From Nitratidesulfovibrio sp. (GTDB lineage Bacteria; Desulfobacterota; Desulfovibrionia; Desulfovibrionales; Desulfovibrionaceae), in the NCBI RefSeq assembly GCF_040373385.1, contig NZ_JBDXXH010000002.1, positions 613,555-677,554 of the forward strand: a DNA stretch of 64,000 bases, written 5' to 3'. Positions 45,742 through 58,930 of the stretch are shown here, in pieces (position 1 is the stretch's first letter; each line of letters starts with the position of its first letter). A model generated the notes under the pieces. It was given only the letters and a program-made list of their open reading frames with translations, had not been told where the DNA came from and searched no databases. Position numbers and translations under genes: made by a program.

Positions 45742-46551
45742 ATGGCGCAGGTGAACACGCTGGTCATCACCGGCTACGGCACGAACTCGCACGAGGAATC
45801 GGCCCACGCGGCCCGCCTTGCCGGCGCCGACCGGGCGGATGTGGCGCATTTCGCCGACATCGTGGCCCGCAGGATCAGGATCGAGGACTACAACTTCATT
45901 GTCTTTCCCGGCGGCTTCCTGGACGGGGACGACCTTGGCGCGGCCCATGCCGCAGCCCAGCGCTGGCTGCACCTTTCCGATGCCGACGGGCAGGCCCTGC
46001 TGGACCGCCTGAAGGAATTCGTGGCCCGGGGCGGCTTGGCCATCGGCATCTGCAACGGCTTTCAGCTGCTGGTGAAGCTGGGTCTTTTGCCCGCGCTGGA
46101 CGGCAAGTACTTCGAGCGGCAGGTGTCGCTGGGCCACAACGATTCGGCCCGCTACGAAGACCGCTGGGTGACCCTGAAGGTGAACCCCCAGAGCCCCTGC
46201 GTGTTCACCAAGGGCATCGAAACCCTGTACGTGCCCGTGCGCCACGGCGAGGGCAAATTGGTGCCGCTGGACGACGAGGTGATGCGCCGCCTGGTGGCCG
46301 AAAACCTGGTCACCCTGCAATACGCCCACCCGGAAACCGGCGCGGTGACCATGGAATACCCGTGGAACCCCAACGGCTCTCCGCTTGGCATCGCCGGGCT
46401 GACCGACCCGTCCGGGCGCATCCTGGGCCTGATGCCCCACCCCGAAGCCTTCAACCACCCCACCAACCATCCGGGCTGGACGCGCGGGGAACCTGCGACG
46501 TTGGGCACCGTGCTGTTCGAAAACGCGGTACGCCACCTGCGCGGCCAATAG
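45742..46551 (+). CDS. PurQ-like glutamine amidotransferase (FGAM synthase family)
   Basis: A 269-residue class I amidotransferase of the phosphoribosylformylglycinamidine synthase group. Catalytic residues: C104 in IGICNGFQLLVKLGLLP, H233 and E235 in LMPHPEAFNHP. FPGGFLDGDDLGAAHA marks the oxyanion strand. It would supply ammonia from glutamine to a PurL partner that is not in this window. GAGGAG lies six bases before ATG. The final codons (RGEPATLGTVLFENAVRHLRGQ in the protein, 247-269 region) are repeated twice more downstream. This 269-residue form is longer than the usual 225-residue PurQ, as in some anaerobes. Confidence 0.92.
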   Translation: MAQVNTLVITGYGTNSHEESAHAARLAGADRADVAHFADIVARRIRIEDYNFIVFPGGFLDGDDLGAAHAAAQRWLHLSDADGQALLDRLKEFVARGGLAIGICNGFQLLVKLGLLPALDGKYFERQVSLGHNDSARYEDRWVTLKVNPQSPCVFTKGIETLYVPVRHGEGKLVPLDDEVMRRLVAENLVTLQYAHPETGAVTMEYPWNPNGSPLGIAGLTDPSGRILGLMPHPEAFNHPTNHPGWTRGEPATLGTVLFENAVRHLRGQ

Positions 46552-46726
46552 TCCGAAGCAGTCGCGCGGGGAACCTGCAACGTTGGGCACCGTGCTGTTC
46601 GAAAACGCGGTACGCCACCTGCGCGGCCAGTAGTCCGAAGCCGTCGCGCGGGGAACCTGCGACCCTCGGTACGGTGCTGTTCGAGAACGCGGTACGCCAT
46701 CTGCGCGGCCAGTAGGCCGCAGCTGC
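46481..46726 (+). repeat. Three 82-bp tandem copies of the purQ-like 3' end
   Basis: Copies start at 46481, 46563 and 46645. Copy 1 is the real gene end with its TAG stop at 46549-46551. Copies 2 and 3 repeat about 22 codons, the stop and part of the 3' flank. Copy 2 differs from copy 1 by a few bases; copy 3 differs at many, and within the codons all the differences I can see are synonymous (ACG/ACC, TTG/CTC, GGC/GGT, ACC/ACG, GAA/GAG, CAC/CAT, CAA/CAG). Since 82 is not a multiple of 3, the copies are in different frames and not translated with the gene. Confidence 0.95.
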
Positions 46727-46766
46727 CCGGCCCCCGCACCGGTACCGTCACATATCCGCACGCAAC

Positions 46767-46798
46767 GCGGGAAGGGAATGCACGCATCCCCTTCCCGC
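46767..46798 (+). terminator. Hairpin after the purQ-like repeats
   Basis: A 14-base stem with one mismatch (46767-46780 with 46785-46798) and a 4-base loop, about 50 bases past the last repeat's stop codon, followed by GCTTCGTTG. Probably the transcript end of the purQ-like unit. Confidence 0.6.
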
Positions 46799-46949
46799 GC
46801 TTCGTTGTGCGGTGCCAGCACCTTTTCAAGCCGGGGCCGGGGCGGTATAGGCGGGTGAAGCGGGGCAAGGGTGTCCCCGGTGCAATCCGGCCCGGCGCGT
46901 ACCGAACTGGCCCGGCATTTCCCCCATCCCATTCAGGAGGACGCACGCC

Positions 46950-47348: not shown

Positions 47349-47576
47349 ACGCCGGGCGCGGGCATCCGGTCCATCCTCGCCTTCCGTATCGATTCACCCC
47401 TCCGGGCCGCTTCCCCCGCCCATACCGCCCTTTCCACGGTAGTTCCGGTGGCTCTTTCCTGCCCCCCCTGCCAGTCCCCTGCCCGAGTTGACAGCCATGG
47501 CCGGTGGATGCATATGCAAGCGCTTGCAAACGCCTGGCCCGCGCGGCCACCGCAACCGACAACCACGGAGACGCCC

Positions 47577-48014
47577 ATGTACGCCGACGCCGCCACCGAA
47601 GCCGCCGTGAATGCCTTCATTGCCCAATGGACCGCCGGGGAAGACGGCGCGGGCGTGCTGCCCGTATTCACTGCCCTGTGCGACCACCTGCACACCCACG
47701 ATGGCGCGGTGGCGGAATTCGTCAGCCGCCCCGGCGTCAGCCATTCGCTGCGCGGCACCTTTCCCGGTTGGGCCGCGCGCCCGCTGGCCGTGCTGGTGGA
47801 CGTGATTGACGACGACCCTGCCGCGCGCTGGCTGTCGGTGTGCTTTCACGACGATTCCCTGACCGACCCGGAAGAGCGCGGCGACTGGATTCCCACCGGC
47901 CTCAACGGCAACGACGCCCGCTGCTTCAATCTGGAAGACGGCGACGAAGAGTTCATGCTCTACGTGAAGGATCGCATTTCCGAAGCCTTCGCCCACTGCC
48001 GCGCCAACGCGTAA
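47577..48014 (+). CDS. Uncharacterised acidic protein
   Basis: A 145-residue, acidic, soluble protein with no recognised domain. It is rich in Asp/Glu toward the end (NLEDGDEEFMLYVKDRIS) and has several conserved-looking Trp/His/Cys residues (ALCDHLHTH, CFHDDSL). GGAG precedes ATG at 47577. It is 228 bases downstream of the CxxC protein and may be cotranscribed with it. Codon use and GC agree with a genuine native gene. Confidence 0.75.
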   Translation: MYADAATEAAVNAFIAQWTAGEDGAGVLPVFTALCDHLHTHDGAVAEFVSRPGVSHSLRGTFPGWAARPLAVLVDVIDDDPAARWLSVCFHDDSLTDPEERGDWIPTGLNGNDARCFNLEDGDEEFMLYVKDRISEAFAHCRANA

Positions 48015-48064
48015 CCATCAATTATCCCAAATTCTCCTGTGGATCCATCGCACAGGAAACATTT

Positions 48065-48094: not shown

Positions 48095-48273
48095 TCCCGT
48101 ACGTACCCCGCACGCTGTAACGATCCGTCGGCGCAGCCGGTTCCTCCCCCACCCATGTCCTGCATCCGCGTTCATGCCCCGCGACGGATGCAACATGCCT
48201 GTCGACCAGCCCCACCATATACGGTACATGACGGACAGTCCGTACAGTCCTGCAACTCCCTCCCGGAGTGTAC

Positions 48274-50916
48274 ATGCGAAGGGGCCATGCTTCCGTCATC
48301 CCGCGTGACATGGCGCGTCTGCGCACCTCTGCCACGGGCATTCAGGTGCCGTCGGAACTGGTTGCCGCCTCCGGTTCCGAAATCCCCGCGCTTCTGGCCC
48401 GGCTGAAGACGACTCCGCATGGCCTTGCGCAGGGGCAGGCCGAACGTCGCCTGCGCCTGCACGGCGCCAACGCCGTCGTCACCGAGCGGAGTCACCCCCG
48501 CCTGCGCATGCTGGGCAAGGCACTACTCAATCCGCTCGTTATCCTGCTGCTGGTGCTGGCGGCGTTGTCGGCGCTCACGGGTGACATGCGGGCCTCCACC
48601 GTCATGGGCCTCATGGTCGTGCTGGGCGTGGGCCTTCGCTTCGTGCAGGAGGCAAGGGCCGATACCGCCGCAGCCCGGTTGCGCACCATGATTTCGGTAA
48701 CGGCGACCGTGGAGCGCGAAGGCACCCCCCGCGAAATCCCCCTTTCGCACGTGGTGCCCGGTGACATCGTGCACCTGGCCGCAGGCGACATGATTCCTGC
48801 CGACGTGCGCCTGATATCGTGCAAGGACCTCTACGTCATCCAGGCGAGCCTGACCGGTGAATCGCTGCCCGCCGAAAAATCTGATCACGTGGAGGACGGC
48901 GCTGGCCGCAGCCCGCTTGAACTGCGCAACATCTGCTTTCTGGGAACCAGCGTCGGCAGCGGCACGGCCACGGCGGTGGTGGTGTCCACCGGGGGCGCCA
49001 CATATCTCGGCAACATGGCCAGCGCCATCACGGACGCCCCACCGCCCACCAGCTTCGACAAGGGCGTGACCCGATTCACTTGGTTGATGATCCGCTTCAT
49101 CGCGATCATGGTGCCCTTGGTGTTCGTCATCAACGGGCTGACCAAGCACGACTGGCATCAGGCCTTCTTTTTCGCCATGGCCGTGGCCGTGGGGCTTACC
49201 CCGGAAATGCTGCCCATGATCGCGACGGTGTGTCTTTCAAAGGGCGCGCTGGCCATGTCGCGCAAGCGCGTCATCGTCAAACGTCTCAACGCCATCCAGA
49301 ACCTTGGCGCCATGGACATCCTGTGCACCGACAAGACGGGCACCCTGACCATGGACCAGGTGGTGCTGAAGCTGCACCTTGATGTGCGCCTGGACGAAGA
49401 CGAAGCGGTGCTGGCACTGGCCTACACCAACAGCCACTTCCAGACCGGCCTGAAGAACGGCCTTGACCGGGCCGTGCTGTCGCATCATGAGCTGCATCAG
49501 GAACAGGGCATTCCGAAGTTTCGCAAGCTCGATGAGATTCCGTTCGATTTCCAGCGCAAGATCATGTCCGTGGTGGTGGAAACGCCCGACCACGTGGTGC
49601 GCCTGATCGCCAAGGGCGCATGCGAGGAAATCTTCCAGCGCTGCACCCTCTGTGAATTCGGGGGAACCACGGTGCAGTTGGACCAGGCGCTGCGGGCAAC
49701 CGTGCACGCTGCTTACGAAAAATTGAGCGCCGACGGCTTTCGGGTGCTGGCGCTGGCCTATCGCGATATCACCGTTGAGGCCCCTGGGTCGGGGCCCGCG
49801 TTTTCGAAAAAGGACGAGGCGGACCTGACACTGCGCGGGTTCATCGCCTTTCTGGACCCACCCAAGGAAACCACGGCGCCAGCCATCCGGGCCATCGAAG
49901 CGTTGGGGGTATCCCTCAAGGTGCTCACCGGCGACAACGACATGGTCAGCCGCAAGATATGCCGTGACGTGGGCGTGCCCACGGAACACGTGCTGACGGG
50001 GGCGGAGATCGAGGCCATGGACGATGCCGCGCTGGCGTCCCAGGTGGAGCAGGTGACGCTGTTCGCCCGCCTTTCGCCTGCGCACAAGCAGCGCATCATC
50101 AGCGCGTTGCGGGGGCGCGGCCACGTGGTGGGCTTCATGGGGGACGGCATCAACGATGCCCCGGCGCTGCGCGCGGCGGACGTGGGCGTTTCCGTGGACA
50201 CCGCCGTGGACATCGCCAAAGAGGCCGCCGACGTCGTGCTGCTGGAAAAGAGCCTGATGGTGCTGGAGCAGGGCATCATCGAGGGGCGCAAGGTTTTCGC
50301 CAATATCCTCAAATACGTGCGCATGAGCGCCAGTTCCAATTTCGGCAACATGTTCAGCGTGCTCGGGGCCAGCGCCTTCCTGCCCTACGTGCCCATGCTA
50401 CCCATTCAGGTGCTGCTGAACAACCTGCTCTACGACGTTTCGCAGGTGCCCATTCCCACGGACGAGGTGGATGCGGAACAACTGGCTGCCCCGCGTCCGT
50501 GGGCGCTGGACCGCATCACCCGGTTCATCCTGTTCTTCGGGCCGTGCAGTTCCCTGTTCGACTACGCGACCTTCGGCGTCATGCTGCATGTCTTCGACTG
50601 TTGGGCACCGGACAAGGCCGCGCTGTTCCAGACGGGCTGGTTCGTCGAATCCATCCTCACGCAGGCGCTGATCATCCATGTCATCCGTACCAGCCGTATC
50701 CCCTTCGTGCAGAGCCGGGCCAGTTGGCCGCTGATCCTGACCACAACGGGCATCATGGCCTTCGGCATGTGGCTGCCCTATTCGCCCATGGCCGACGCAT
50801 TGGGCATGGTGGCGCTGCCGCCGCTCTACTGGCCTCTTCTGGCGGGCATGTCGCTGGGCTACGTGCTGCTTACGCAGGGCGTGAAAATGCTGCTCCAGCG
50901 CAAACGCTGGATTTGA
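48274..50916 (+). CDS. mgtA: Mg2+-importing P-type ATPase (MgtA/MgtB type)
   Basis: An 880-residue P-type ATPase of the P3B group. Phosphorylation site D353 in DILCTDKTGTLTMDQ, actuator TGES at about 194-197, the hinge GDGINDAPALR, and the family-specific NLGAMDILCTDKTG and LLNNLLYDVSQVPIPTDEVD. About ten transmembrane helices, with PxxP-like residues in M4 (VGLTPEMLPMI). It imports Mg2+ using ATP. GGAG sits five bases before ATG 48274; a GTG two codons earlier is possible. Single-gene unit; a small palindrome upstream may mediate Mg2+ or stress regulation, but no mgtL leader was seen. Confidence 0.93.
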   Translation: MRRGHASVIPRDMARLRTSATGIQVPSELVAASGSEIPALLARLKTTPHGLAQGQAERRLRLHGANAVVTERSHPRLRMLGKALLNPLVILLLVLAALSALTGDMRASTVMGLMVVLGVGLRFVQEARADTAAARLRTMISVTATVEREGTPREIPLSHVVPGDIVHLAAGDMIPADVRLISCKDLYVIQASLTGESLPAEKSDHVEDGAGRSPLELRNICFLGTSVGSGTATAVVVSTGGATYLGNMASAITDAPPPTSFDKGVTRFTWLMIRFIAIMVPLVFVINGLTKHDWHQAFFFAMAVAVGLTPEMLPMIATVCLSKGALAMSRKRVIVKRLNAIQNLGAMDILCTDKTGTLTMDQVVLKLHLDVRLDEDEAVLALAYTNSHFQTGLKNGLDRAVLSHHELHQEQGIPKFRKLDEIPFDFQRKIMSVVVETPDHVVRLIAKGACEEIFQRCTLCEFGGTTVQLDQALRATVHAAYEKLSADGFRVLALAYRDITVEAPGSGPAFSKKDEADLTLRGFIAFLDPPKETTAPAIRAIEALGVSLKVLTGDNDMVSRKICRDVGVPTEHVLTGAEIEAMDDAALASQVEQVTLFARLSPAHKQRIISALRGRGHVVGFMGDGINDAPALRAADVGVSVDTAVDIAKEAADVVLLEKSLMVLEQGIIEGRKVFANILKYVRMSASSNFGNMFSVLGASAFLPYVPMLPIQVLLNNLLYDVSQVPIPTDEVDAEQLAAPRPWALDRITRFILFFGPCSSLFDYATFGVMLHVFDCWAPDKAALFQTGWFVESILTQALIIHVIRTSRIPFVQSRASWPLILTTTGIMAFGMWLPYSPMADALGMVALPPLYWPLLAGMSLGYVLLTQGVKMLLQRKRWI

Positions 50917-58542: not shown

Positions 58543-58930
58543 CGATGCTCCACGGTGCTTGCCGTGCGCCGGGCCGCGAAGTGCGGCGCGCGCAACGTGC
58601 GTGTTCAATATAGCCACGGGGCCTGCTTCCGCAAGCCTCGCGATGGGGCTGCCGCATCTGGGTGACACATCAAGATGACACATCTGGGTGACACATCCGG
58701 GTGACACATCTGGGGGGGGCACATTCGCGACGAACCGGTCTTGGGCGTGCTCGGCAACGACGAGCAAAGCAGAACCGAGTACGCCGGGCCGAGCACAATG
58801 GGCGATGACGCATCCGGCACCGGTCAGGCTGCCCCGGCTTGTCAACAGCCCGCCGGGGATGGTATCCACCTTCAATGACTGCAACGGCAGGGCGAACCGG
58901 CCTGCTTCACCCCGCAAAAGGATTGTCGCC
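58543..58930. other. Divergent region flavoprotein / ACT protein
   Basis: 388 bases without a gene; contains the 13-bp tandem repeat array listed next and the promoter regions of two divergent genes. Nothing else recognisable. Confidence 0.5.
58658..58724. repeat. Five-unit 13-bp tandem repeat
   Basis: Units of the form CTGGGTGACACAT begin at 58658, 58671, 58684, 58697 and 58710; units 1 and 3 are identical, unit 4 differs at one base, unit 2 at three, unit 5 is stretched by a G-run to 15 bases. The array lies 115 bases upstream of the flavoprotein start. Each unit holds TGACA; repeated operator or a slippage-prone satellite are both possible. Confidence 0.85.

Follow-up and report, generated by a model that had tools for sequence, protein, structure and literature searches.

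Silent differences among tandem copies of a purQ-like gene end point to an old gene-end minisatellite in Nitratidesulfovibrio

The 3' end of a purQ-like gene is repeated in tandem in the window, that is, the whole stretch of 64,000 nucleotides of Nitratidesulfovibrio DNA analyzed here. This array is probably an old gene-end minisatellite, in which units have been gained by duplication, lost by deletion, altered by conversion and moved in turn through the coding position. The array and its junction are shared with other species of the genus, its units differ from one another only by silent changes, and units which are non-coding in one species resemble the coding gene end of another.

Tandem Repeats Finder and a second repeat finder agreed in placing three 82-bp head-to-tail units at positions 46481-46726, with a constant period and a repeat finder score (402) which was the highest of the 14 rows obtained for the window. 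The host gene (45742..46551, plus strand) encodes a glutamine amidotransferase-like protein of 269 amino acids that matched the Pfam model GATase_5 (PF13507) with 286.9 bits (cut-off 27). Since the NCBIfam PurQ models matched it below their cut-offs (best match, 190 bits against a cut-off of 298), we refer to the gene as purQ-like. It was matched in 56 of the 59 genomes searched. The gene terminates inside the first copy, and each unit encodes RGEPATLGTVLFENAVRHLRGQ followed by a stop, i.e., the last 22 codons plus TAG, which confirmed the three tandem copies described in an earlier note on this DNA. Unit 1 (46481..46562, plus strand) carries the coding gene end with the TAG and an 11-nt linker. 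Unit 2 (46563..46644, plus strand) and unit 3 (46645..46726, plus strand) are non-coding copies with 96 and 85% identity to the first, respectively; the linker is repeated in unit 2, and the tail of unit 3 merges into a downstream flank that is common to G001, one of the species compared below. With 82 being 1 modulo 3, the frame of the purQ-like gene is not kept in the extra copies, again as the earlier note had stated. Within the coding unit, codons 248-256 (RGEPATLGT; 46483..46509, plus strand) form a silent hypervariable stretch at the 5' edge, and codons 257-269 with the stop (46510..46551, plus strand) form a nearly invariant half. Matches to the array unit in the window's own genome were limited to the three array units.

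The surroundings of the array showed some further features. A terminator-like inverted repeat, I3 (46760..46805, plus strand), with 22-nt arms that are 86% complementary, lies 3' of the array; a similar sequence is present at the purQ ends of all eight species compared, and it is nearly identical in all of them despite diverged surroundings. The alignment with the seven other species ends at about position 48017, just past the ORF 47448-48014, and beyond this point the window's genome has a different arrangement, which includes an ORF (48268-50916) that we take to be cation-ATPase-like. Elsewhere in the window, positions 58655-58714 hold 2.3 copies of a 26-bp tandem repeat, CATCTGGGTGACACATCAAGATGACA.

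Alignment of the three copies codon by codon over the 66 coding-like bases gave two base differences between copy 2 and copy 1 (in A and Q codons), both silent, and eight base differences in seven codons between copy 3 and copy 1 (T, L twice, G, T, E, H, and Q), all of them silent as well, in agreement with the seven or more synonymous codons noticed earlier. About 70% of random point changes in the 66-bp stretch would alter the protein, and simple arithmetic from this figure gives a chance of p ~7e-5 that eight out of eight changes are silent if they are independent. The same held for the genus: the 14 units of the eight species, six of them non-coding, all encode the same 22 residues and stop, and the six extra units, each compared with the coding end of its own genome, showed 20 differences without a single amino-acid change, 18 of them in the third codon position and the other two in the first position of Leu codons. 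The corresponding chance is p ~4e-11, although both p values assume an independence that is incomplete, as tracts can move together. Since the extra units differ only silently, they must have diverged while coding, before they reached their present position behind the stop. The earlier claim that copy 3 evolved under protein-level selection before it became redundant was thus borne out, by eight of eight silent differences in the window and by 20 of 20 over the extra units of the genus. By the four-fold clock, six extra units that had remained non-coding for the whole age of the clade should have accumulated about 10 differences that change the protein, against the 0 observed. The absence of changes bounds the mean non-coding time at about 29% of the clade depth with this clock (gene body and pyrG) and at about 12% with the flank clock (0.177 pairwise).

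It is very unlikely that the extra units are instead functional as DNA or RNA, as a structure, a regulator site or a set of stops in three frames, and are kept by selection. Owing to the period of 1 modulo 3, three copies do place a stop in each frame, a long shifted ORF ends at the stop of copy 3, and codons 257-269 are unusually constant. However, the differences keep the protein and not the DNA, the copy number ranges from 1 to 3, and an RNAalifold analysis of 13 of the 14 units (all but that of G006) gave no covariation, with none of the 18 predicted pairs changed on both sides.

The distribution of the array was determined in a comparison set of eight Nitratidesulfovibrio species, with one genome per species and G000 being that of the window. 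The array was present in four of the eight, with three units in G000 and G003 and two in G004 and G007; G001, G002, G005, and G006 had a single unit, although arrays in these draft assemblies may have been collapsed or given a wrong size. Unit number therefore varied between genomes (3, 3, 2, 2, 1, 1, 1, 1), and period and junction were identical in all four carriers. The linker resembles the flank behind the last unit in G003, G004, and G006, as predicted by plain tandem duplication; in the window, the last unit lacks such a linker-like tail. In a tree of the pyrG-purQ body, G000, G007, G004, and G003 together with the single-copy G001 and G006 formed one group with full support, G002 and G005 were outside this six-species group, and the inner forks had values of 91-93 (not starred). 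Since G001 and G006 fall inside the fully supported group of carriers, a single origin of the array followed by two losses fits these data and would be the simplest history. The trees flanking the array conflicted, the upstream (body) tree joining G003 with G006 (93/94, not starred) and the downstream tree joining G003 with G004 (100/99), which hints at recombination near the array. The tree of the units themselves was too short for resolution (0 of 9 forks starred).

Comparison of individual units revealed that they change role between species. The second, non-coding unit of G007 has its closest counterpart in the coding unit of G000, with three differences, compared to eight from the coding unit of G007 itself, and the non-coding middle unit of G003 is identical over its first 27 nt to the coding unit of G006. 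Within genomes, the units had no differences in G004 and 0-2 in G003, yet one of the latter is a single difference away from that of G006; within-genome divergence reached eight differences in G007 and for copy 3 of G000. Between copy 3 and any of the 13 other units there were at least eight differences.

The earlier note had explained the array by a single homologous recombination, with copies 1 and 2 as the incoming allele and copy 3 as the end of the resident gene. It is true that copies 1-2 represent an allele clearly different from copy 3, with silent differences only, and the flank-tree conflict among G003, G004, and G006 makes recombination near the array likely in the genus. A single event is nevertheless very unlikely: the array and its junction are identical in three other species, and G001, the downstream flank of which is 99% identical to that of the window (150-bp interval at 46696), has a copy-1/2-like gene end, with four differences from each of these copies and nine from copy 3. 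None of the seven relatives carries copy 3 as its native end, the match that the note had proposed to look for, and no abrupt change of identity was visible in 150-bp intervals of the gene body, where it had advised a search for breakpoints. What stood of the proposal is the exchange of diverged units, which the G003/G006 and G007/G000 likenesses and the tree conflict support. The signal that had been noticed is real and its main meaning was right, and the single event is replaced here by the continuing turnover of an old array.

According to this turnover, the last 66 bp of purQ, with the stop codon and 11 bp of flank, would have been duplicated in tandem in the ancestor of the six species. 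Such a duplication would be harmless, as the first copy still completes the gene. Units would later have arisen and disappeared, been exchanged and undergone partial conversion, and we infer that recombination between the direct repeats was the process involved, with exchange with DNA of related strains probably contributing as well. The unit now behind the stop would be a recent coding end, hence its silent-only differences, and copies 1, 2, and 3 would be successive or alternative ends of one gene, copy 3 being the most diverged.

Insertion by an integrase at a gene end also leaves repeated gene ends with silent-only differences, and the purQ array resembles such an attachment-site duplication in that a gene end is directly repeated with silent differences. 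Silent-only differences are thus what one would find if the repeats were scars of a lost integrative element that targeted the purQ 3' end and brought a silently recoded gene end. This origin is, however, highly improbable. The units are directly adjacent, with flank-like linkers and with neither an element nor a remnant between them; the next two ORFs after purQ are conserved in other species and can be aligned to about position 48016; a 26-base unit pattern had no exact match in IMG/VR, and the array had no blastn match in phages or plasmids. In addition, the variable arm would be expected 3' of the conserved core, but here it is 5'. A scan for a displaced purQ end in 102 loci (L012-L113), among which some genomes appear twice and five loci come from Nitratidesulfovibrio species other than G004 and G007, gave one convincing match, the N. 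oxamicus array itself; the other matches were short, poorly conserved or on the opposite strand, and were taken as chance.

We also analyzed the silent variability of the gene end in the six species. The mean pairwise silent codon difference of codons 248-256 was 0.64, a value reached by none of 20000 shuffles; the next separate nine-codon segment of the purQ-like gene had 0.28 and the best in pyrG 0.30. Four-fold divergence in codons 248-256 was 0.63 (70/111) vs. 0.075 in the gene body plus pyrG, and none of the 115 four-fold comparisons in codons 257-269 differed (coding units, six species). This hypervariability was present in single-copy species too. In a three-genome survey, where 1494 ORFs were reduced to 156 genes with ungapped hits in both other genomes at a coverage of at least 80%, and where at least six differences with a third-position share above 60% and removal of overlaps were required, codons 248-256 were among the four most variable protein-conserving places, and their ratio to the gene mean (5.8) was the highest among the survey rows listed. 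The silent variability of this stretch is therefore extreme but not unique. The agreement of the variable stretch with the body tree was poor: it needed 28 steps where 16 is the minimum, and the remainder of the gene needed 125 where 99 is the minimum. This is what an exchange of units would be expected to give, and part of the hypervariability may stem from old unit lineages having been shuffled with short conversion tracts.

Other sources of this variability were considered. It is not a general property of purQ ends, as in eight pairs from other genera the corresponding segment (codons 249-257, one codon later) had 0.25 vs. 0.178 in the body, a ratio of 1.4. A donor from the other genera sampled is unlikely, as RGEPATLGT was encoded in none of the 16 loci, out of 22 listed, that were read in the right frame. 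A degenerate pattern, with up to two mismatches, retrieved from the eight genomes the 14 units and one two-mismatch place elsewhere in G003, and a CRISPR spacer or off-locus copy was consequently rejected. We further weighed whether the 27-bp stretch is under a diversifying pressure at the DNA level, for example from a sequence-specific nuclease or a mobile element, with the array as a by-product. The four-fold contrast given above, next to a total flank divergence of 0.177, and the ratio of just 1.4 in the other genera speak for such a pressure. We still hold it to be quite unlikely, given the outcome of the pattern search and that three other places in the 156 genes were equally variable. 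Rotation of units in an old gene-end minisatellite does not account on its own for everything seen here either: it leaves unaccounted the concentration of silent change in the first 27 bp, with the last 39 bp nearly frozen, and the single-copy species with the same hypervariability.

Further arrays were sought in 409 kb of each of three genomes, a survey that was then widened to 2.427 Mb. Local direct repeats with a score of at least 30 occurred at 36.7/Mb (89 in 2.427 Mb) vs. 3.9/Mb in other genera (3 in 0.776 Mb, 75 loci). Repeats spanning the stop of a long ORF occurred at 9.1/Mb (22) vs. 0/Mb (0) in the 75 purQ-region loci of other genera, a comparison in which the 22 rows lie over mechanical ORFs of at least 200 codons, many of which are perhaps not genes, the same array counts once per genome (one citramalate synthase array twice), and the control loci all surround purQ, differ in G+C and are neither a random nor a matched sample. 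Five further loci of the genus had two repeats in 50 kb, one of them being the N. oxamicus array.

The end of a citramalate synthase gene (TIGR00977, 679 bits, cut-off 450) carries a 40-bp tandem array at G000 C2:431665-431805 (L146:16665-16805; L198-L205 in other species), with 1-3 counted extra units in seven of the eight species and a partial unit in G005. In a parallel to the purQ array, the 13 counted extra units had, compared to their own gene ends, 23 silent and 7 changing codons, where the expected changing fraction is 0.74 (p ~8e-9); units were counted up to the first with more than 9/36 differences, so that decayed units, visible in G003, G005, and G006, are dropped and silent change is favored. 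In G001, all four counted units have Ser where most species have Gly, which looks like homogenization. A 107-bp tandem array was found at the end of a 248-aa gene, which a polysaccharide biosynthesis model matched weakly (21 bits, cut-off 500). It has three units in G004 (L192:9364-9643) and two in G007 (C1 near 440200), the second of the latter with changed residues and without the stop; the period is equal in both species, though the linkers share little sequence. Finally, an array of about 28 bp, read by eye, lies at the end of a MacB/FtsX-type permease gene with MacB_PCD and FtsX domains (L227 near 9037 in G007; L279-L283) and was present in six of the seven genomes where the permease was found. 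Hypervariability was not a property of every gene-end array, the citramalate synthase end having 0.161 vs. 0.094, the 248-aa gene end 0.252 vs. 0.122 and the permease end 0.080 vs. 0.123 (5 genomes); a strong effect was confined to purQ, two other arrays had about a twofold one and the remaining array had none.

Two more stop-containing repeats were observed in the genus. One terminates a response regulator-GGDEF-EAL gene (L258 near 7891, G000 C1); this array has a period of 93 bp and at least four units, and it enters a run of N. The other is a 104-bp repeat common to two species (G000 C2:357303-357574 and G004 C1 near 1481850), which presumably covers the end of a sensor kinase gene and the start of a response regulator gene.

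The arrays of purQ, citramalate synthase, the 248-aa gene and the permease are alike at their junctions, the unit edge (marked by a slash) being RGA/CG in the gene and RRT/CG in most downstream copies, usually followed by MG. The purQ junction reads GGACGCG in the gene and AGTCGCG in the copies, that of citramalate synthase GGACGAG and AGTCGAG, that of the 248-aa gene of G004 also GGACGAG and AGTCGAG, and that of the permease AGACGCG and AATCGCG, or GGACGCG and AGTCGCG in G005. There were exceptions: the second linker of the window's purQ array has CGT/CG, the permease copies have AAT/TG in G004 and, in one case, AGT/AG in G007, and the citramalate synthase unit continues with CGAA and not CGMG in several species. 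A GA/CG edge together with an AT/CG or GT/CG junction occurred at 8 of the 264 boundaries of 132 repeats, at four distinct loci which are these four gene ends, and the motif was absent from the 93-bp GGDEF-EAL array and the 104-bp repeat, two other stop-containing arrays in real genes. As the motif was noticed by eye and tested afterwards, the nominal p of 1e-14 (five further arrays as the sample) overstates the case. The background frequency of the longer form was estimated at about 1e-5 per array. Rotation alone leaves the junction likeness of four unrelated gene-end arrays unaccounted. A process with a sequence preference might repeatedly duplicate gene 3' ends in Nitratidesulfovibrio, the units then serving in turn as gene end and thereby speeding silent change at the unit edge; we put this forward as a tentative and rather doubtful idea.

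Bacterial minisatellites, or VNTRs, which are used as MLVA markers, have units of tens of bases, the number of which varies as a result of slippage or recombination. The purQ array is like them in its tandem units of tens of bases and in a number that varies between genomes, and unlike them in that the unit holds the last codons and the stop of a gene and that the non-coding units differ silently only. The MIRU repeats of mycobacteria are tandem, of similar length, located at gene ends and contain stop codons, but they are one family dispersed over many loci; in contrast, the purQ array is derived from the gene at the end of which it stands, and a search of the window's genome gave no further copy. 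Nor is it the same as an integrase attachment-site duplication, as no element lies between the purQ repeats and the linker is flank-like. Concerted evolution of multicopy sequences in prokaryotes is known for rRNA operons and has been reported for 26 genes (PMC6053082). The purQ copies may resemble such sequences in being homogenized or exchanged within one genome, and are unlike them in being partial gene ends of which one is under protein selection at a time. No published account of a purQ-end array was found among the titles and beginnings of abstracts covered by a literature search, which is not proof of novelty.

As an object, this small tandem array is ordinary; what is unusual is the record it holds, in that its units were each once a working gene end. 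If the reading as an old gene-end minisatellite is right, the silent differences record units that were formerly translated, and the array would be a fossil series of the end of its own gene. It would also provide a natural measure of the turnover of a short tandem array relative to point mutation. If the junction likeness holds in more arrays, small tandem duplications of gene ends would not be random in this genus.
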